Origin: Caenorhabditis elegans
Taxonomy: Eukaryota > Nematoda > Chromadorea > Rhabditida > Rhabditidae
Assembly (NCBI RefSeq): GCF_000002985.6
Contig: NC_003280.10
Span: 2,356,001-2,420,000 of the forward strand
Reading direction: 5' to 3'
Length of the DNA: 64,000 bases
The position numbers and the translations under genes were made by a program. Shown here piece by piece: positions 12,189 to 63,005 of this stretch (positions within the stretch are counted from its first letter, which is position 1; each line of letters opens with the position of its first letter). Below the pieces are notes generated by a model. That model searched no databases. It saw nothing but the letters and a program-made list of their open reading frames with translations, and was not told where the DNA came from.

Positions 12189-12248
12189 ATTGTGTTGTTT
12201 TTCAGTGCCGAAAGAGCTCGAGGATCTCCGACGAACGATAATATTCAG

Positions 12249-12708
12249 ATGGATCGTCAAAGCCATATCCTTTCTGTTGGATTGAAGAAGGTATTCATTA
12301 TCACTTCTATTATACTCCTACAGATTTATCTTCAGGCCTCAAACGGAGAGTTTGGGCTTCAAGTTATGGACGGAATTCGTGGACCTGTCATCAGTTTCGT
12401 CAGTCCGGGATCCGCCTCTGCTCACATCTTCCGAGCTGGCGACGTGATTATGGCGGTCAACGATAGACAGGTTACTGATATGGTAAGATTGAAATTATTT
12501 GGACTAAAGAATCTTAAGTGATTGTTTTTTTTTTCTGGAAAACACTTCGAAAAACACTAAAGCTACCAGAAAATGCTCTACAGCTTTATCACTTGTCTAA
12601 TTTTGTAATTTTTTGCAGAAAACGGTGCAAGATTCCTTTGAAGCCGCTGGGAACGTCGTTTGGATTGAGTTTTATCGTCCTGCTGGAATTACACAATTGA
12701 ATCTCTGA
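12249..12708 (+). CDS. Single PDZ-domain protein (or C-terminal part of one)
   Basis: Exons 12249-12290, 12336-12482, 12619-12708 give 92 residues. The PDZ fold is readable: 'ILSVGLKK', the ligand loop 'EFGLQV', 'PVISFVSPGSASA', 'FRAGDVIMAVND', and the helix 'TVQDSFEAAGN' before 'VVWIEFYRP'. PDZ domains bind C-terminal peptides and scaffold proteins. The ATG at 12249 is the first in frame after the acceptor at 12205. If the messenger is trans-spliced there, this would be a complete small protein. If joined to the upstream exons, the phase conflict needs explaining. AATAAA-like signal follows at about 12728. Confidence 0.65.
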
Positions 12709-33545: not shown

Positions 33546-34984
33546 TTACCAATTGCTGAAAAAAAAAAATTTAGTGAGCACTTAATTGAAGTCAACTCGC
33601 CATCTTATTGAGGTGAGAAGCCCTTTTTTCCCGTTCAACGATCCATCTCCGCAAACAGTCTCATTTTTCAAGCCCGGATTAATTCCACGTGGATATTTCG
33701 AGGCCGTCAGCAAATTGTTTTCACATGTGAGTCCATAGTAATCATTTATGGTGCCGCCACCCAAATCTGCCATAGACAATGGAGGTGGGATTAGCTAGAA
33801 AAATTTGATTTCTTAAAAGTTTGATCGACAGTTATGGTTTTGTCTAGAACAAGGCTAGGCTTAGGCTTCGGCTTAAGCTTAGGCTTAGGCTTAGTTGACG
33901 CACTGCACCAAACGTATGCATGCCCAAAAAAGTGTCGACTGCACCATATTCCAGCGAAATGTTGGGCTAATGTTAGGCTTAGTCATAGGCTTGGGATTGA
34001 GATTGAGCTTAGGCTTAGGCTTCTGCTTAGGCGTTGGCTTTGGTTTAGGTTTTAGCTTATGCTTAAGCTTAGGCTTCATCTCAAGCTTAGACTTCGGCTT
34101 AGGCTTAGGCCTAGTCGTGGCGGGGCAGTCCCAAGTTCCAATTGGTACCCAGAAAAAAACCCCCACTAAAACATTAAGAAACTTTAAATCACGACCCAAA
34201 AACTCTAAAAAAAATAGTCTAAAATCGCGTTTTTGGACTCGACGCTAGATAAGTTTGGGCCAATATCGGACACAGCTACCTTGGTGAATTATGTGCTAAC
34301 ACCATAACGCATAAATGACCCATGTAGAAAAATACCACTTACAAAATCTTTTTCACCATTATCAGCTTTTGGCAGTTCGCTTCCTTCATATGATCCAAGA
34401 ACATATGGCAATGTGTTCTCGGGACAGACGAACACATCGCAGCCATCAACCTTTTCGATCGTCATTGGAACTGAAATTTCAAAAGATCTCTGCTGGCCTA
34501 ATATGATTCTGGGGTGATTTTCCGGCTTACGCTGAACCACTTCTTCTTTCAATAGGTCTGGGCACTTCGCCTGACTAACTGGACAATTGTTTTCTGTAGC
34601 TAGCTGAGTAGTTGAGAGAGTAGTCGATTCTGTCACAATTGAAGTCTCAATTGTGGATGTTGCCATCATTTCCTAAAATATTAAAGGACGACTCACGTGG
34701 TGTCAGGCTGTCCCATCATCTTTTGATCTACAGAAAATGCGGGAAATTTTGTCCAAAAAAATGTGACGTCAGCACGTATCTCTTCTCCCGCATTTTTCAA
34801 AGATCTAAGTAGATGAAACCAATATGGGACACTCTGACACAAAGTGAGTACTGGGTTTTTTGCTCAGTATGTGCCCAAATGAACTAATTTCACTCACAGT
34901 TGATGGCAAATTGGCAATACATTTGGCTTCCATGTGGCCAATCAAACACAAAGTTAGAAATACAAAATAAGAAATTTTCGACAT
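33546..34984 (-). CDS. D13: DUF281-like secreted protein, class A leader, GC-AG intron
   Basis: Exons (minus): 34984-34898, 34672-34531, 34470-34343, 33794-33601, 33555-33546. Leader MSKISYFVFLTLCLIGHMEA then KCIANLPST. Exon 2 is a Thr/Ser stalk running into 'NNCPVSQAKCPDLL' without the usual intron. Then 'IEKVDGCDVFVCPENTLP' and 'DYYGLTCENNLLTASKYPRG', 'DGSLNGKK'. The donor after 33601 is GCGAGT. Splicing there restores the standard phase and gives C-Asn-Trp; reading through gives RWRVDFN stop. Class A leader on D15-like downstream exons is a clear leader swap. Intron 4 contains (GGCTTA) repeats. Confidence 0.68.
33850..34125. repeat. Interstitial telomere-like TTAGGC repeat
   Basis: Many perfect and degenerate GGCTTA/TTAGGC units ('taggcttaggcttagttg', 'gcttaggcttctgcttagg') within D13 intron 4. 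TTAGGC is the nematode telomeric unit. Open frames on both strands here are repeat artefacts rich in Leu-Gly or Lys-Pro. Confidence 0.8.
34690..34852. mobile_element. Short inverted-repeat MITE in D13 intron 1
   Basis: 'cacgtggtgtcaggctgtcc' at the left and 'gggacactctgacac' at the right are inverse ends. The middle carries 'tgtgacgtcagcacg' and two 'cccgcattttt'-type stretches. A second copy lies at 35385-35555 and a fragment at 9.46 kb. I recognise this as a common C. elegans repeat, from memory. Confidence 0.65.
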
Positions 34985-41961: not shown

Positions 41962-42984
41962 TTACAAAATATCATCACATTGAGCCATTCTGTTTGAACC
42001 ATCAGTTGCTGAAACATATAAATTTGGTAATTCAGAACGAGAACCAATTTTCTTGTTATTACACATATACTAGTACATATACGTAGGTGTAGTAGTGTAA
42101 AAGTACTTACCATACAAAGTTGCGATGGGTCCTTTTTTCCCATTCAATGAGCCATCATCGCCCACAAGCGAGAAACCAATAAAAATTCCACGTGGATATT
42201 TCGAGGCCGTCAACTTATTGTTTTCACATAAAAGTCCATAGTAATCATTTATAGTTATGCCATTTAAATCATCCGATGACAATGGTGCTCGAATTGCCTG
42301 GAACTTTTCATTCGAGAATAGAACAACAGTACCACTTACAAATTTAGCTACTCCAGGTATTGCGACATCTGTTAGTTCGCTTCCATCAAATGAACCAGTA
42401 CCATATGGCAATGTGCCTACAGGGCAAGATAAAACAACGCAGCCATCCACCACTTCGACCATCATTGGCGCTGAAATCAGAAAAAAAAACGTTTAGCGTG
42501 CTTTCTCACGTGAGTCGTACGACTCTGACTTGAAAATAGTTCATTGATTTGAACTTTTCTGAAAAATAAAACAAGTATGCTCACCCTCAACCACTGTTGT
42601 TAAATCTGGGCACTTGGTTGTAGATGTTGGGCATACTTCTTCTGAAACATCTTAATAGTTTAAGAAAATAATCGGTTGAAAGCTTGCCTGTTGTTGATTC
42701 CATTGCAATTGTTGTCATCATCGTTACCTTAAAGTTCAAGGTTTTAATCTACTTGTAAGTATTATTAATCCATATAGTTATACCTCAGGCGCCTCGGTTT
42801 CCTCGGAGGTCTCTGGAGTAGACACACTTCCAGGAGCCATTGTGATCTCTCCAGGAGCCAGTGTGCTCTCTTCCGGAGCCAATGTACTTGGAATATATAC
42901 ATCATCTGGTGGAACCATTCGCATACAACATTCAGACACTACCAGAAAATATGGAATAGTTAGAAACAAAGTCAAAATATTCAT
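41962..42984 (-). CDS. D19: DUF281-like secreted protein, class B leader, altered C-terminus
   Basis: Exons (minus): 42984-42784, 42727-42688, 42641-42585, 42470-42340, 42297-42111, then from 42008. Leader to VVSEC, then CMRMVPPDDVYIPST. 'VTMMTTIAMEST' ends at a GC donor (GCAAGC). Then 'EEVCPTSTTKCPDLTTV', 'MMVEVVDGCVVLSCPVG', 'SELTDVAIPG', 'DYYGLLCENNKLTASKYPRG', 'DGSLNGKK'. The fifth exon is one base short of the usual phase. The last exon is therefore read as ATDGSNRMAQC... to a stop at 41962, instead of the usual Cys-Asn stop. A Cys is still present near the end. Function may survive. Confidence 0.65.
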
Positions 42985-49256: not shown

Positions 49257-50421
49257 CTAAGTTCTAGCTTTTCTTTGAATACGTGCAAACATAAAGTTTT
49301 TACGCTCTTGGTAATATCTGATTTGAAGATCCTCCTCAACATCAGTGTAAGGGAAAAACCAAATATTAGGTTGTCCAGTCGAAAGATCGGAAATTCTGCG
49401 GAACGGATCTCCCAAGAAAGTATCATCGAATATGGATTCATTAATATCACTGTTCACAAACTCGGCTTTAAATTGACGGAATGTTTGAGATAAGAGGAAT
49501 GTCTGAAATTTTTGTGTCTTTTTTACAGTAAATAATGCGAAATATTCTAAATAAGTCCAACAGAAACATTTTATAGTTTTTTTTTTCAATATAAACTCAC
49601 ATCTTTCAAATATACAACATCTCCCAATGATATCGAGTCCAGTACTATGTCGACTTTTGTAAAATGAACTAAATCCACAACATCGCATTTCACCACAAGC
49701 GAGTGGATATGCAATTTTTCTGCGTTTTTCCAATGTTTCATGCTGGATAGTGTTTTAATGCTCCGCACGTCTCTTGTCGGCGTGCCGTCCGAAAATGCAA
49801 AGTTAATAGCTTTCAGTGAAACGGGGCCCAAGTATTGGAGTATTTGCGTCACCGTTTCTGGATCACTAGTCGTCATATTTAACTTTTCAACCAAAAGCAA
49901 TTGATTTAGTGAAGAAAACGTTTCTTTGAATAATTCAACATATGGATTTTCGTTCAGATTTATGAGCTCTTTTCTGTCTTCAATAAATTTTAAAGAGAGA
50001 TCGCTTAGCGCATTTTTCTGGTTCTTGAATATATGGAACATGTCGTTCGAATAGTTACTTTTGTTCAAATTAAAAGTATCTTCTGGTTTTTCATAATAGT
50101 TCAATATCTCTGTATCATCTGTATCGGATATGCGAACAGATCTGTATCCAATCCCACGGCCGAAAATTTCGACTGCTACCACTTTGGGGTCAGGCTTGAG
50201 AACTTCGATGAGTTGGCGAATTAAACTTTACCAAAAAACTTTACCGATAACTTGTCTACAACAAAAGACTTTTCTCTTGAAAAAATGAAATTACAAATCT
50301 ACAAATCTTTAAAGTTGAGATATTCCGTAATTTTTCCCATAATTAAAATGTTATGAAGCCATTCAGTTGAAGACTGTGATAGGGATAGTTTTGAAAGTTG
50401 TTGGTCTGCTTCGAGAACTTT
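49257..50421 (-). pseudogene. F5: F-box + FTH gene copy, in-frame stop in F-box
   Basis: Paralogue of F3. Exons (minus): from 50421 ('KVLEADQQLSKLSLSQSS' and F-box start 'ILIMGKITEYLNFKDL'), then from about 50258 through 49602 ('VLKPDPKVVAVEIFG' and the FTH core 'MKHWKNAEKLHI', 'DLVHFTKVDIVLDS'), then about 49501-49257 ('FRQFKAEFVNSDIN', 'IWFFPYTDVEEDLQI'). At the start of exon 2 the frame has TAA where F3 reads Ser-Arg-Ala-Ile-Arg. No first exon like METLLKK was found. The FTH region remains open, so decay is recent or the gene uses another start. Confidence 0.65.
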
Positions 50422-50757: not shown

Positions 50758-51681
50758 ATCCGGTTGAATAATTTTTATTTCTTTTGATTCCTTGCATAGT
50801 AAAAACTCCCGTTTATCCTTGATCAGGCGAACCGAAAATCCGAACTTTTCAGATTATTTTTTACCAATTAACTTGTCCAATAGTTCTTCCGTCACATCGG
50901 CTTCCAAGTGTTCGTAGTTTAAGCTAAAACTACAAAACTTAGGGGCATGGAAGTCAAGCTGCAAGAAATATGGAAAAATAACAAACATAGAAATTCCACC
51001 AAAGCTCACCTTTATAAGCTTTTGTATGTCAAGTGCTGATATTTTTCAAACTTTTATGTCCACATCCTCACAATGACTAAAGTGTTCGAACGGTATTGAA
51101 ACGTTGAAATCTTTAAGATTGATGTCTTTCGCACTTTTCCATTGATCCATTTTCACTATATCACCAAACCCAACAATTTCTAGTTGGTTTTCTTCTTTAC
51201 GATATGTGATGTACAAATCTTTCAATGTATTTGAGTCAAAGCATTGTAAGATGTCACGGAGCTTGGAAACGTGGTCGATATTCAAAGAGAGAGTGTTAAC
51301 AGGAATTCTCTTTTGTTGTTTTTTGAAACAACTTTTGAACTGCTTGTAGACACAATCTGCAGCTTCAACGTTTTCGCGACAGACCTCATAGTAACGAACT
51401 GCAATGAATAGATTTTCTGCGAAATTCGCATTCATAAAAATATGTTCCAAATCTTCGCACATTGCATCAATATATTCTTTTCCTTGAACCAGCAACTTGC
51501 TGCATGTTGTCCGTCGAACTTTTGTATTTAGTCCTTTATGTTCATATACAACCATAAAATCAGGATGGCCTTCAAATTTAAGCATGAGAAATCCGAATTC
51601 TTTCTGGCAGCTGAGGCTCACAGATAACTCTTTCAAAATCCAATCGTTTGTGGCTTGACACAGTTTATTCGTATATGACAT
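50758..51681 (-). pseudogene. F4: FTH-only gene copy, interrupted by stops
   Basis: Paralogue of F2. The first exon reads MSYTNKLCQATNDWILKELS and runs 211 codons through 'KLRDILQCFDSNTLKDLYI', 'MDQWKSAKDINLKDF' and 'PFEHFSHCEDVDIKV'. There a TGA replaces the TGG (Trp) of F2. Beyond it the frame continues ('KISALDIQKLIK', GTGAGC donor) into a second exon ('LDFHAPKF', 'EELLDKLIGKK'). That exon has TAA in frame, after which 'KDKREFLLCKESKEI' still aligns with F2. Two stops against F2 make this a probable pseudogene. No F-box. Confidence 0.7.
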
Positions 51682-52155
51682 TCGCTGAAATTCAAATCAG
51701 TTGAATTCAAAAATAGAAATAACTAGGGGTTTTTTGAATGTTTAATTTCGCAGAGTTCGCAGAGTAATTATGTACATCAATTTAAAACTTCCAATATAAA
51801 AATTTAATAAAATAGCCACATTCAAACAAATCGACGCAAATTGAGAAAAAAGCAACACTGGCAACTCAGACACTCTAAAGTTAGTATCTCGTTATTATTC
51901 AATTATTTTTAAAATTTAAAACCCAGAAAGTATCAAAGTTGGTAGAAGAACTAATTACAAATGTGCAGTTGCCTATGATGCCAGAGTCTTATCAGTTTTT
52001 GTTACTCTAAACGTTCAAGTCTTATGAAAATGTGTGCTATTTCATTTTTTTTTCAAAAACAATTCAAAGTTTGCTTCGTTTTCGAAAGAAGAAAGAGTTG
52101 AAAACGACGAAACTATAATACGTGCACGAGCTGTAAAATGACACTTCTGGATGTA
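51682..52155. other. Intergenic upstream of F4
   Basis: AT-rich, no gene. Ends at the TA target of the mariner-like element. Confidence 0.35.
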
Positions 52156-53440
52156 CAGGGTGGCGCACAATTACCCGCACAAAAGTTTGCAGCGGCACCA
52201 CGTATGCAGGGACGAAAAATTGCAGATGGGCCATACAAATATTTGATCATTATCCTGTTTTCCACTATTTCGTCAATTTTCAGCTCAATCCGTCCTGTTT
52301 CAGCCGAATGGTACCACCAAGTCCGAATGGTGTTTCAATTTCGCGTTCATTCGTGACTGGAGTTCGCCCAATGGAGATCGCTAGACGTCTCCGACTTCTA
52401 AGACGAACCGTCAATGATATAATTTCTTGTTACAAGGACCTTGTAGCACTTTGCAATTGTGCTGGAAGAGGATGTACTGTAACGGTGACAACTCCACAGC
52501 GAGTTACAAAAGCCATGGCAAGAATTCGGAGAAACTCAGATCGGAGCATCAGAAAAATGTCAGAGGACATGAAAATCAGTCGCCGTTCAATGGGACGAAT
52601 AGTAAAAGACCAGTTAAAATTGGATATTTCTTGTGGGAGAAAGACGGCGATTCTCTCAGTAGCCACCGTCAAGAAAAGACTGGAAAGATCGAAAATTCTC
52701 CTCCGCCGTACGCGCACTGATGAAAATTTAGTGACTGTTTTTCCGACGAAAAATTTTTTATGAAGCAAGCGGAGTTCAACTCCCAAAATTATTGAGTGCT
52801 AGCTTAGACATCTGGAGAAGCTTTGGACAAGCGTAGAATAATTTTCCGCTTCTCACCCAGCATCTGTGATGCTTTTTGGAGCAGTTGTCGCAACTGGCAA
52901 ATCTCCCTTGTTTTTGTCTATATAGGAGTGAAAATCAACATGAACCAGTGAGTTTTGATAGTTTGGAGAAGAGTTTGATCCCATGGACATCATCTCACTT
53001 TAATGGAGCTCATTGAGTATAACAGCAAGACGGCACACCGCCAATCTCACTCAAAGCTGATGCGAGACCCATTTTACTGCGTTCATTCTTAAGAATAACT
53101 GGCACCGTCATGCTGGACCTGAACTTATTGGATTATTCCAATTGAGGGGTTTTGTAGGCAAAGGTCCATACCAAACCTCACTTAAGTATCGAGGCTCTGC
53201 AGAAGATCTTGCTCGAGGAATGAGGCGATTTGTTGGAGGAGTACCTGCGTACAGTCATCGATGACTACCCGCGACTTCATCGAGCTGCTAAGGCTAAAAA
53301 AGGAGGTCGCATGGAGCATGACTAATCAAGTTATGTTGTTTTGAATGTGAATAAACTTTTTGTTGAGTTTCATGTTTTCTGACGCCTGGTGTTAAAGTTA
53401 CACTACTATATTTTTGTGCGGGTAATTGTGCGCCACCCTG
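52156..53440 (+). mobile_element. Mariner/Tc1-like transposon with decayed transposase
   Basis: Perfect 29-base inverted ends (52156-52184 and 53412-53440) starting CAGGGTGGCGCACAATTACC, flanked by TA on both sides (52154-52155, 53441-53442). The interior encodes a transposase in pieces. 52308-52763 carries the N-terminal helix-turn-helix part ('MEIARRLRLLRRTVNDII', 'SRRSMGRIVKDQLKLDI'). Later segments in shifted frames match the catalytic core ('SVMLFGAVVATGKSPLF', 'QQDGTPPISLKA', 'MLDLNLLDYS') and a Lys-rich tail near 53320. Frameshifts and stops make it inactive. Intact ends mean it could still be moved in trans. Confidence 0.85.
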
Positions 53441-53711: not shown

Positions 53712-54963
53712 TTACAAGAATCTGTGGAAAAAGTGCTGAAATCTAGTTTCTCTTGGAATACGAGTGAACATAAATTGTTTACGCTCTTGGTAATATCTGA
53801 TTTGAAGATCCTCGTCAACATCAGCGTAGGAGAAAAACCAAATATTAGGTAGCCCTGACGAAGGATCGGAGACTCTGCGGGAGGGATCTCCCAAGAAAGT
53901 ATCAACAAATATGGTCTCATTGATATCACTGTTCACAAACTGGGCTTTGAATTGGCAGAATGTTGGAGACGAGAGGAATGTCTGAAAATTTTTTAAATTT
54001 TTTTCAGACTAATGTTTTTTTTTAATATAAACTCACATCTTTCAAGTATACAACATTTTGCAATAACATTGAGTCCAATATAATGTCAACTTCTGAAAAA
54101 TGAATCAAGACCTCTACATCGCATTTCACGACTGTATTGTTGATAGTCAATTCCTTTGCATTCTTCCAATGTTCCATATTGCATAAATTAATTTTATTAT
54201 CAAGCTCAATTTGTTTCCATGGTCTGTTCACGTATTCAGATCCAAATTCAATTTTTCTCAGTGAAACTGGATCCATGTATGTGAGTAGTTGCCCCACGAT
54301 TTCTGGATTCCTTAAATTCACTGTAAATTTTTCAACAGAAAACAATCGATCCAGTGGCAAAACAAATTCTTCGAAACACTCAATATATAAGTGTTCACTC
54401 TCCTTCTCGAACTCGTCTACATATTCTAGTTCAAGCTCGGTGAGAGCAGTTTTTTGATTCTTCAAAATGAGGAGCATGTCGTTCGAGAAGTTGGAAATAT
54501 CCAATTTATTAGTTTGGTCTGATTTATTACTTCCACTGTAGCCGAATAATTTGCTATCATCCTTGCCGAATATTTCAACACTTCTTGTTCCGAGCCCATA
54601 ATAAATGGTCACTGCCACGACTTTGGGGTCAGGCTTGAGAATATCAATGCACTGACGGATTGCACGAGAAACTTTACGAAGGACTTGCCTAAAACAACAT
54701 GATTTTTACAACAATTTAGTGAAAATGACTTACAAGTGTTTGTAATCAAGGTATTGAGTAACTTTCCCCATAATCACACAAATATGAAGCCATTCAGTGG
54801 GACCCTGTGATGTGGAAAGTTTTGAAAGTTGACGTCCGGCTGCGATGGCTTCCTGAAAATTTGTTCAACAGTTTCAACAACTTTGTCAAAGATAGATTCC
54901 CCAATTTGTCGATTAAAAAATTACATTTTGGCACAATTTTACCTTTTTAAGTAGGGTCTCCAT
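53712..54963 (-). CDS. F3: F-box protein with FTH domain (FBXA type)
   Basis: Exons (minus): 54963-54943, 54852-54734, 54688-54037, 53981-53712; 353 residues, all phases consistent. The N-terminal METLLKK exon is followed by 'WLHICVIMGKVTQYL' and 'QVLRKVSRAIRQCID', an F-box of the FBXA type, expected to bind an SKP1-related protein in an SCF ubiquitin ligase. The C-terminal two thirds is an FTH (FOG-2 homology) domain: 'LLTYMDPVSLRKIEFG', 'MEHWKNAKELTI', 'VLIHFSEVDIILDS', then 'FKAQFVNSDIN' and 'IWFFSYADVDEDLQIRYY'. FTH is the presumed substrate-binding part. The start codon lies in the 8-base target duplication of a hAT-like element, which now forms its immediate upstream DNA. Confidence 0.82.
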
Positions 54964-58215: not shown

Positions 58216-59475
58216 TCAATTTACAATGCAACAAGAAAACATATGAACTGCAAAATGAAGTTTGAACTTATTGCTACCATGTGACCATAAATTGTCGCCT
58301 TCAGTGAAGTCTGGCTGGAAAACTTTTGCAATTTTTATTGGGTTTGAATTATACCCTTCGAAGTAGATACTGCATTCTCGAAATGTACTTCTCTTCAGAA
58401 GATCCTAAAATTCAATGTACGTATTGCTAACAGGTATAGTTATACTCACATCTCTGATCTTAACTGCATCCCGTACTGTAAACTTGTTCGCTGTAATAAG
58501 AATTTTCTCAAAGTGAAACAGGTGCTCAATCTCTTTAATGTCAAATGCACAGCCCCAGAATGTGAAGCTTTTTGCATTTTTCCATTGGTCCAAGCTTCTG
58601 ATTTTCTCAAATCCATTGTTTGATTCCACAAAGAATATTTCGAGATCTTCAAGCACTTGGTCGTCAAAGTACTGGAGTAGTTTAAAAATTCCGTTGATTG
58701 AAAAATCATAAAGCCGTAAGCTTTTAATGTGAACTGGCTTGTTGGTTCTCAAGGCTTCTTCAAAAAAGGAATTTTCTAGTATGTCACGATTATTATAAAG
58801 CGATAGTTCGGTTATTGCATGCTTCAATAAGCCCTCCAAATCTTTGAAGGCTATTCTCGTAAAATTTTCTCCTGGGATAGCCTTCTCTAGTCCATTGTAG
58901 GCTACAATTGTGTCAACGGGCTTTTCAGGAGTATACTTGATCTCTTCAATTCCGTTCAAGTGCATTCGAACCTCATCTTTCCAGTTTTGAAATCTGATGG
59001 AATTTAATGGAAGTCCCAGCTTATCCACAGCTGATCTCAAGCCTCGGCACACTTTTCGGGAAGCTAGTCTGGAATTTTTTGAATTTTTTAATGGCGACAA
59101 CAAAAAAAACTTGAAAAAAAATAATTAAAATAGCTAGAAATTTTTTTTTGTGAAATTTCAAGAACCTTGTGAAAATTTTGCAAATTTGTACGGAAGTATT
59201 CCAGATTTTGCTCATTTTTCAAAATTTTTTGAAGCTTTTGTACAAAATCGTAAAAATTTGGTAAAAACGGGTGAGGTAACGTCACAAACTATATACTACA
59301 AAATCATATTTTATACCTTTTTTTAGAAAAAAGTATTTATCAAACATTTAGAAAAAGTAACTCACAGATCCGTAACCCCAAGTTTTTCCAAAACTTGTTC
59401 AGCGACTTGCAAAGGCAAATTGAGCAAAGTTGGAGCTACAATTTGCATTTCCGAAAACAATTCTTCAACGTTCAT
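58216..59475 (-). CDS. F1: F-box protein with FTH domain (FBXA type)
   Basis: Exons (minus): 59475-59366, 59068-58450, 58404-58216; 305 residues. Exon 1 encodes MNVEELFSEMQIVAPTLLNL and 'PLQVAEQVLEKLGVTDL'. The split Leu codon continues in exon 2 as 'LASRKVCRGLRSAVDKLG', completing an F-box. The FTH domain follows: 'LLQYFDDQVLEDLEIF', 'SLDQWKNAKSFTFW', 'EHLFHFEKILITANKFTV'. Exon 3 has 'FRECSIYFEGYNSNPIKIA' and 'VFQPDF', as in the FBXA C-terminus. Likely substrate adaptor of an SCF-type ubiquitin ligase; substrate unknown. The protein is clearly diverged from F2-F5, so it is an older branch of the cluster. The 297-base intron 1 has no features. Confidence 0.82.
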
Positions 59476-60462
59476 CTGAATTTATACATAAAATTAACCT
59501 CTTTTTTTATAGTAATATGGAGAAAAGTTATAAAAGTACGCAGGATGGCGAGAAGAGTTCAAAAACTCAACAAGTGTAAACACTGTGACGACAAAATGCA
59601 CATCATTTTCATAGTTTGTACATTTTCTGAACAGACGGTTTTTTTTATCAGTTTTTGATCTCTGCGTGTCTAAATCTATGGGTTCTCTAATATTCTGCAA
59701 TGCATCATAAAATGGAGGGCGGTTGGTAAATACCTCTGGTCAAAACTGAAGTGAATTTAGAACCTTGTTAGCTACAAAATTGTCAAATATATTTTCTGAA
59801 GGATAATATTATGGAATTTTTTGGTATTTTTTTCAACAAAAAATTCCACGTCTTTTTCGAGAGTTTTAATAAGTTTTAATGTCAGCTTTTATATGGAAAA
59901 TAACAAAATTAACGGATTTTACAAAGTTTCATCAAAAGAAAAGCCAAATTTTTTTTAGAAAATTGACAAAAAAAATTTCTCCTGCGAACTTGTTCAAAAA
60001 GTCAAAATAGTTTATTTAACGTACTTGCAACAAATTACTCACAGAAATTGTGCTAAAAGTGTGCAATATGATTAGAAAAACCAAAAAGAATTCAAAGAAA
60101 TTCAGTATTAAATCAAAAAGTTTTGACGAAATTTAAAATTAAAAAAAAATCAATATTGGGAGATTTTTTTAAGTGCATCAAAAAAAGTTATCTACTATGT
60201 TCCTTTAAAAAAATATTTTTTATATGTTTTGTAGATTACTGGGGGTTTAAAAGACTATGAAAGGGCCGGGAAAAAGATTTTAGAACTAATTTGGTCACAG
60301 CAAAGAAAAAATGCATTTTATAATTAGTTGTATTGTATTATACATACATACATAAATATTGCGCCACGTGATTGCAGACAAAGATCAACCCAAACAGCAA
60401 GCTGGATTTTCTACACGGTGCTGAAATTGGAAGGGAATTTTGTTGTCATGGAAACTGAAAAT
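59476..60462. repeat. Intergenic with dispersed AT-rich repeat
   Basis: 59725-60240 matches 24520-25165 over most of its length ('acttgcaacaaattactcac', 'ttcagtattaaatcaaaaag'). No gene in the remainder; the frame at 59395-59658 is mostly a shadow of F1 exon 1. Confidence 0.55.
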
Positions 60463-61971
60463 TCAAAATTGAAACAAAACATTAATCCATACAGCTATCT
60501 TACGTAAAGCCATTTTGTCTATCTCCGGAAAAGTGAGTGCAACATCTAAAACGGCAGGTTTTACAACTGCACATTCCGTTCCCGAATCGGTTAAGGATCT
60601 TGTCGCAAGCTCTACGTCGTCCATTTCCATCGACAACTTCAACTCGGCAATTTTTAAATTCTGATGTTTAAGGATTTCTGATAGTTCTGCCACAAGCAAC
60701 GCATTCTTTGAAACGTTCATGTCTGCGATGGTGTGTAATTTTCCGATCGCCTCGTTTTCCAAAGCATTTATAGTTTCTCGTATTGAAGCATAGTAGGAGA
60801 CTATCTGTAAAGCTGTGTGTAATTTTTTTTTAATTTATATTATGAGTGCTAAGGAATACCTCGAAAAATTCAAAAATTGGGAAGTGTTCCTATAGCAGCG
60901 TACTGTGGGGGAAAGTTTCAAGCAGTTATATTGGAAAATCCGGGCAATTAAATTTTTTTTGTCTACAGTCCTCACCTACCGAATCCTTTCTCTCTTGAAA
61001 TTCCCTCCCATCCTTCAAATTTGAGAGTTGGGCTCTGAATTTATTTTTTTTTGGTTAATAATTTTTTCACATTTTCCAACTTTCCTACCTGCCAACAGCT
61101 TTAATACTCTTGTCAGTTTTACTAACTTGCTCCTCCAATTTTGAGAGCTGGCAGCTCAGTTGTTGTCTTAACTTTGCGATTTCCAACGGTGGAACTCGTA
61201 AAGTTTTCTTTAAAAATTTGTTCAACAGTTGAGAACAACTTTGTTATCAACTTACCTGATCAATTGCTTGCAGTAATGCAAAGTTTTTGGGAAGACTTGC
61301 CACACTGCTCACATTGGTTTCATTCCGGCAAAATGGACATAAGATAACACAGTTTTTGGCCAGCTTTGATGCACAGCTTTGACAAATTGAGTGGCCACAC
61401 TCTGTACAAAAAATTGTATTGCCGCACTTTAGAGGCATCAAAACTCACGAAGAATCCTAGGAATCTGGTTATCAACAACACTTGAAAACTCCAAGGTACA
61501 TATTTCGCACTCGATGTTTGATTTTGAATCTGTATTGTCAACGAAAGTAACCACAAGCCTATTGTAGGTAAGCTCGTCTGGTTTGACATTTTTCCAAACT
61601 GATTCCAAATCAGAAACATCAATGGAAGGCGCGACGCACGATTGAACCAGAAACTTGTGCTGCTTAGCATCAGGTGGAACTTTTTCCAAAGGTTGGAGCA
61701 TCACTTCAATTTGTTTCGAGTCCCCAATGTTTAGAATTCCTTTAAAAATGAAACAATGGCCGTCCGGTAACCGTGTCATTCATTTTTCTTCAAAATACTC
61801 ACCTCTGTTTGGACGAACACAATAACTATTTGGAACCGTTGTTTTTACTAGAAAACACACTGGGCTTTGTGATATATTTGTGAGCGTCATGTAAGTAGTG
61901 ATCACGTGATCGAATGGACCACTGAAGACGAGCTCTGGAGGCACTTCTAGAAGACTCTTTTTTTCAGGCAT
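60463..61971 (-). CDS. VAP-type MSP domain fused to RING finger and coiled coil (putative E3 ligase)
   Basis: Seven exons (minus): 61971-61803, 61739-61449, 61401-61256, 61207-61089, 61034-60980, 60889-60860, 60804-60463; every junction is in phase. Residues about 8-130 form an MSP domain close to VAP proteins: 'CFLVKTTVPNSYCVRPNRG', 'MLQPLEKVPPDAKQHKFL', 'SVWKNVKPDELTYNRLVV'. The Lys positions used by VAPs to bind FFAT motifs are kept. A C3HC4 RING follows: CEIC, CGH, CQSC, CPFC, then 'SLPKNFALLQAI'. The C-terminal third is Leu/Glu-rich ('ETINALENEAIGKLHTIAD', 'AELKLSMEMDDVELA'), predicted coiled coil as in TRIM/RBCC proteins. Ubiquitin-ligase activity and FFAT binding are inferred from the domains. 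Confidence 0.78.
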
Positions 61972-62534: not shown

Positions 62535-63005
62535 CCGAACTTTTCAAGACCATGCAGCAATATTCTTTCAGAAGCAAATGGTTTTCTACACGTGAGAGAA
62601 TGCGTTGGAAAGGACGATTTGAAGTGATGCACACATATGCAAGCCACAGTACACGGAATCACTGGCATCACGTCACCCAATGCATCAGGATTTGATCTAC
62701 TTCCCGTGGCGCCCAGAGGACTTGTCTTTCTGCCAGTGATCCCAGGAACCCAGAGGTATGTTTCTGGCCCAGCAACGCAGAATTCACTGAACAAAAACCA
62801 TTTTCAGGGTGCTGTCAACATGGCATACTACGCGAACAAGGACTATGGCATGTCCCTTCCACGTGAATCCGTTGAGATGAAGGCTGGAGATTTTGTGTTC
62901 TACCATCCGTGCTTGTTCCACGGATCCGGTGCCAGTCGATCCGATGGGTTCTCGTGTCACGACGAAATACACGCCCGCGCGCGCATTTTCAATATCTTGG
63001 AGTAA
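62535..63005 (+). pseudogene. Phytanoyl-CoA hydroxylase (PhyH) pseudogene
   Basis: Readable PhyH pieces in different frames: 'VRECV GKDDLK' then a stop; 'KPQYTESLASRHPMHQDLIY' with the iron-binding His-x-Asp (HQD); 'FPWRPEDL'; after a gap 'VIPGTQR'; after an intron-like stretch 'GAVNMAYYANKDYGMSL'; 'KAGDFVFYHPCLFHGSGASR' with the second iron-ligand His; and a scrambled 'SCHDEIHARA' tail. PhyH alpha-hydroxylates phytanoyl-CoA in peroxisomes. About 20 residues normally between 'RPxDL' and 'PGTH' are missing, at least two frameshifts and a stop are present, and the N-terminus is absent. The 3' half keeps an open frame (to 63005). Confidence 0.8.

Follow-up and report, generated by a model that had tools for sequence, protein, structure and literature searches.

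The window, a stretch of 64,000 nucleotides of chromosome II of Caenorhabditis elegans (C2:2356001-2420000), carries a minus-strand gene which joins a VAP-like MSP domain to a C3HC4 RING and a long helical region. The gene occupies positions 61971-60411 and consists of seven exons. All six introns are of the GT-AG type, and the frame is open throughout. The simplest model specifies a protein of 378 amino acids; placing intron 5 by homology, at alternative sites which match those of the paralogs of the RING half, removes four residues and gives 374. An initial annotation had ended the coding region at 60463; it extends instead to 60411, the last exon being the short one at 60454-60411. The features are listed in Table 1.

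The same annotation had described the two domains as being fused in frame, and this is borne out. The places at which it had looked for the join (61448/61402 and 61255/61207) are incorrect, as these introns fall within the RING and after the RING, respectively. The join itself (ca. 61527-61516) sits within one open exon, which means that the fusion is visible in the DNA. Because the MSP domain ends and the RING starts within exon 2, separate MSP and RING transcripts, the result which had been named as fatal to the fusion, are very unlikely. An arrangement of two separate genes was rejected, both domains being borne by exon 2 in one stop-free frame. As C. elegans is a reference genome, a WormBase gene model with automatic domain labels probably already exists for this gene.

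Ten frames were covered by a scan of the window for neighbouring genes (Table 1). The four stretches with an FTH domain are typical of nematode F-box genes. The frame with similarity to phytanoyl-CoA dioxygenase adjoins the fusion gene on the opposite strand, and that with weak paired-box and helix-turn-helix matches may be a transposase remnant.

Table 1. Exons and domains of the MSP-RING fusion gene, and neighbouring features of the window
Feature	Position in window	Strand	Remarks
Exon 1	61803..61971	-	start codon and N-terminal half of MSP; phase-1 donor, codon as in VAP gene
Exon 2	61449..61739	-	C-terminal half of MSP, fusion point, first RING Cys pair; one open frame
MSP domain, residues 10-109	61944-61803 + 61739-61582	-	split by intron 1; PF00635; re-found at the same places in genome search
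Fusion point, ~codons 128-131	61516..61527	-	VAP-gene homology stops, TRIM-like homology starts
C3HC4 RING, residues 133-182	61512-61449 + 61401-61316	-	split by intron 2
Exon 3	61256..61401	-	second half of RING and the stretch after it
Exon 4	61089..61207	-	short linker and start of helical region; paralogs' B-box (~45 residues) absent at ~61187/61186
Exon 5	60980..61034	-	helical region; donor placed by homology to paralogs
Exon 6	60504..60804	-	long helix (residues ~262-333) and C-terminal tail
Exon 7	60411..60454	-	final 14 residues and stop
PDZ-domain frame	12189-12518	+	PF00595, 1.3e-6
TRA-1-regulated family frames	34292-34672; 42073-42492	-	PF02343, E 2.5e-6 and 5.7e-20
FTH-domain stretches (four)	49589-50227; 51049-51696; 54025-54705; 58408-59124	-	PF01827, E 1.6e-18 to 2.9e-32
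Paired-box and HTH frame	52137-52760	+	PF00292 and PF13384, both under cut-off
Phytanoyl-CoA dioxygenase-like frame	62628-63002	+	PF05721, 1.2e-10

The MSP half and its source

The Pfam MSP model matches with an E value of 1.4e-28 (99 bits against a cut-off of 25.9), and a phmmer search of PDB sequences matched the MSP half to human VAPA (1.3e-30). The NCBIfam scan of the protein gave a single, weak and meaningless match. When the complete genome (100,286,401 bases in 7 contigs) was searched, the nearest MSP relative proved to be the VAP gene at C1:5.869 Mb, which we take to be vpr-1. The two share 87 of 131 residues (66%) and, at the DNA level, 76% identity over 202 bases and 72% over 194 bases, the homology stopping at about codon 131. 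The VAP gene was modelled as four exons specifying 245 amino acids with a C-terminal anchor. Its first intron and intron 1 of the fusion interrupt the same codon in the same phase; a common intron fits the capture of a DNA copy together with its intron rather than of a processed transcript. The second-nearest match is a VAP-like MSP gene on C5 (ca. C5:8739446-8741214) in which the domain is spread over two exons, with 52% and about 30% identity to the two halves of the fusion MSP; none of the RING matches listed lies within 10 kb of it.

The absence of a C-terminal membrane anchor had been noted from the start and was confirmed: the best 19-residue hydropathy value is 1.12 compared with 2.69 for the VAP gene, and falls short of the C-terminal ER membrane anchor of the VAP family. 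The best reading is that the protein is soluble. The fusion resembles VAPA, VAPB and VPR-1 in its VAP-type MSP domain and most of the FFAT-contact residues, shares its first intron with the VAP gene of this genome, and differs from the VAP proteins by the missing anchor, the RING continuation and the changes K50L, M96L and K125R.

The RING half and the missing B-box

The RING was recognized less readily than the MSP domain. The two best Pfam RING models (residues 133-179; 9e-6 and 1.5e-5) lie approximately 2 bits under their cut-offs, and in the scan of the fusion protein no RING model exceeded its own cut-off. All eight zinc ligands of the C3HC4 pattern can be made out by eye, and the arginine which follows them presumably occupies the usual linchpin place. 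In phmmer searches of PDB sequences the whole protein matched TRIM23 and TRIM32 over its RING half (1.3e-10), while the RING half alone was most similar to TRIM23 (7.5e-11).

A genome search with the RING half gave at least 51 exon matches, the best 12 of which, self excluded, are all located at C2:2.31-2.34 Mb. This is a clustered, multi-copy TRIM-like family some 80 kb from the fusion gene; the cluster at C2:2.29-2.34 Mb presumably comprises ZK1240, F43C11, B0281 and other TRIM-like names. Three paralogs (A, B and C) were assembled from it. The N terminus of paralog A is MSKVIECEIC, against DSKSNIECEIC at the corresponding place in the fusion, which puts the join at about the old start codon. 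Introns 2-6 of the fusion have phases 1,0,2,0,1; the phases of paralog A, as modelled, are 1,0,0,2,0,1, with an extra intron inside its B-box; once this intron is set aside all five phases agree, a match which is partly guided because the exon limits of the paralogs, like those of the VAP gene, were placed by similarity and include some weak donors. In PMC3503706 most of these genes are termed TRIM-like, and B0281.8 (TRIM-21) is listed beside the ZK1240 genes. K09F6.7 appears in one published TRIM gene list.

The fusion lacks a Cys/His-containing block of about 45 residues which paralogs A, B and C have in common. The designation of this block in paralogs B and C as a B-box relies upon its Cys/His pattern by eye and upon the literature (PMC2533329, PMC9388098), as a Pfam scan of the two at 0.05 yielded no match to a B-box model. 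The fusion had been described as a RING with a TRIM-like coiled coil. The RING and a long helix are indeed there, but without the B-box that its paralogs have the fusion does not qualify as a tripartite TRIM. Compared with the TRIM-like genes of C. elegans, the fusion shares the RING, the long helical region and the intron phases; it differs in lacking the B-box, in having an MSP domain in front, and in lying ca. 80 kb outside the cluster.

Exon 6 was folded alone, and the best of the five models shows a single helix of 72 residues, with pLDDT values of ca. 90-96 over the first 60 residues; this prediction was made from one sequence, and the five models have mean pLDDT values of 79.2, 72.0, 60.3, 56.0 and 39.8 (pTM 0.39). 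A test of hydropathy periodicity gave no significant sign of a coiled coil (970 of 2000 shuffles scored as high), and for this reason the dimerization that we propose below is argued from the family.

Occurrence of the MSP-RING combination

Genome-wide, at least 125 MSP matches were compared with at least 56 to zf-RING_2, at least 57 to zf-RING_5 and at least 51 to the RING half. Among the matches listed, MSP and RING lie within 10 kb of each other only in the fusion gene and in one pair on C4 (MSP 5457348-5457657, RING 5451262-5451432, same strand). The latter was considered as a second fusion and rejected: the two are about 6 kb apart, a stop ends the MSP frame, repeats and other open frames intervene, and they look like separate genes. 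The gene described here is the sole MSP-RING pairing that we found in the C. elegans genome among the matches listed, a comparison in which an intron-split RING of another type near an MSP domain could be missed because both Pfam RING searches omit the fusion's own split RING. A pattern scan of bacterial and archaeal contigs, a collection which says nothing on nematodes, gave 43 matches, none of which was confirmed.

In full-text searches of the open-licence literature none of the matches listed described an MSP-RING fusion in its title or at the start of its abstract, and the word MSP does not occur in the main text of two surveys of TRIM genes which list those of the worm. The parts and their families are known; judged from these titles and abstracts, the combination appears to be new.

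The FFAT groove and its possible partners

The residues of the VAP groove which contact FFAT motifs are given in PMC7610837 as K50, V51, K52, T53, T54, V61, R62, N64, K94, F95, M96 and K125. Nine of the twelve are identical in the fusion (V51, K52, T53, T54, V61, R62, N64, K94 and F95); M96L and K125R are conservative replacements, bringing to eleven those which are identical or conservatively changed, and K50 has become leucine. The initial annotation would have been contradicted by loss of the contacts: this has not occurred over most of the groove, K50 being the exception. The VAP gene at C1:5.869 Mb retains all twelve. At position R127 the fusion has valine and the VAP gene methionine.

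In PMC7610837 mutation of K50 is described as blocking the binding of phospho-FFAT motifs and not that of the ORP1L FFAT. Loss of phospho-FFAT binding is therefore predicted for the fusion, and from K50L we infer that it would bind conventional rather than phospho-FFAT motifs.

We suggest, giving the proposal slightly better than an even chance, that the gene specifies a soluble chimeric E3 ligase which employs a captured VAP groove to pick FFAT-type partners. The chimera would have arisen when copied exons 1 and 2 of the VAP gene became attached to one of the TRIM-like RING genes, at about its start codon. If the gene is expressed, the groove of its soluble product would take FFAT-type peptides, the RING would bring in an E2 enzyme, the long helix would pair two chains, and proteins with FFAT motifs would be ubiquitinated. 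Ligase activity has a precedent in the TRIM-like family: for TRIM-21 (B0281.8), ubiquitination of CED-1 together with UBC-21 has been reported (PMC9388098).

The groove might instead have shifted to new partners which lack FFAT motifs, such as sperm MSP or a receptor. The fusion departs from the VAPA contacts at three positions and the VAP gene at none, and there is a report that the MSP domain of VPR-1 is secreted and serves as a signal (PMC3764199). Against this, two of the three changes are conservative, and the contacts have not changed significantly more often than the remaining sites (3 of 12 versus 5 of 47; Fisher p=0.34). We regard such a shift as improbable; sperm-MSP-related partners, which the initial annotation had offered beside FFAT proteins, gained no support in this analysis.

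A second alternative is that the protein is an integrated-decoy restriction factor, analogous to TRIMCyp, in which the VAP domain would bait FFAT mimics of pathogens and the RING would mark them for destruction. Viruses and bacteria exploit VAP, in some cases through FFAT mimicry (PMC9213790). According to PMC5513711, norovirus NS1 still bound VAPA when either K50 or M96 was changed, and both are among the three positions altered in the fusion; binding did not survive the change of K125 to Glu or Ala, and the fusion has Arg at K125. RCS-1, a RING protein termed a TRIM23 homolog, belongs to a ligase of the intracellular pathogen response of C. elegans (PMC12656827), and this ligase is pathogen-induced in the worm (PMC12656827, PMC11238739). 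In addition, the RING half derives from a clustered multi-copy family, and the fusion gene adjoins FTH-domain genes of the F-box type. A precedent among soluble forms of VAP is the antiviral VAPC, an anchorless splice form of VAPB which blocks HCV NS5B (PMC9213790). It is a weak one because PMC9213790 and PMC7610837 describe it as lacking structure and failing to bind FFAT motifs. Also against a decoy, every pairwise dN/dS value is under 1 and gives no hint of positive selection.

In TRIMCyp a gene fusion has coupled a bait domain from the host, cyclophilin, to a TRIM-type ligase, much as proposed for the MSP-RING gene; the TRIMCyp bait is C-terminal, the B-box is kept and the gene arose by retrotransposition, whereas the bait of the MSP-RING fusion would be N-terminal and have been captured with its intron. 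RCS-1 of the CUL-6 ligase shares with the fusion a tie to TRIM23, which is named as the human homolog of the former and is the best PDB match of the RING of the latter. It works in a cullin complex, unlike the arrangement proposed for the fusion, and we know of no MSP domain in RCS-1 or the CUL-6 ligase. Nor do we know of any nematode pathogen which uses FFAT mimicry. That the fusion is a nematode counterpart of TRIMCyp directed at the FFAT mimics of intracellular pathogens, with K50L sparing the phospho-regulated FFAT partners of the host, is a speculation to which we attach little probability. No earlier decoy with VAP as bait is known to us and, if the reading were true, this would to our knowledge be the first.

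Selection and age

Returning to the proposed FFAT-selecting ligase, we compared each half with its relatives. For the MSP half versus the VAP gene pairwise dN/dS is 0.31 (NG86), 0.39 (YN00) and 0.34 (ML). For the RING half the corresponding values are 0.21, 0.42 and 0.22 against paralog B, and 0.24, 0.31 and 0.20 against paralog C; such pairwise figures blend in older history and are compatible with recent decay. The RING half may be less constrained than the paralogs, since dN/dS between B and C (0.11, NG86) is lower than that of the fusion to either. With VAPA as outgroup, 8 amino-acid changes were assigned to the fusion branch, 8 to the VAP branch, and 25 were unresolved; the captured MSP domain is therefore changing no faster than its source gene. 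The dS of the MSP half, ca. 0.7-0.8 and uncalibrated, suggests that the fusion is a moderately old event.

These values bear on two further possibilities. A soluble MSP domain could act as a dominant-negative mimic, competing with ER-anchored VAP for FFAT partners, the RING being of little importance. The lack of an anchor and the mostly intact groove would be in keeping with this, but the RING half has dN/dS values of 0.20-0.42 by three methods and, by eye, has kept all its zinc ligands, and we think it an unlikely explanation. That the gene is a dying or unexpressed chimera is very improbable: the RING scores slightly under cut-off and dN/dS exceeds that between two paralogs, but seven open exons, GT-AG introns, dN/dS of 0.2-0.4 and equal numbers of changes on the two branches all speak against it.

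Implications

If the fusion works as the FFAT-selecting ligase proposed here, it would be a natural ligase whose choice of targets is set by one well-understood peptide groove. Its substrates would as a result be predictable from FFAT motifs, and the prediction testable in a standard laboratory animal. It would also tie the biology of ER contact sites to ubiquitin tagging, and would be a clear example of a multi-copy ligase family acquiring exons by capture.
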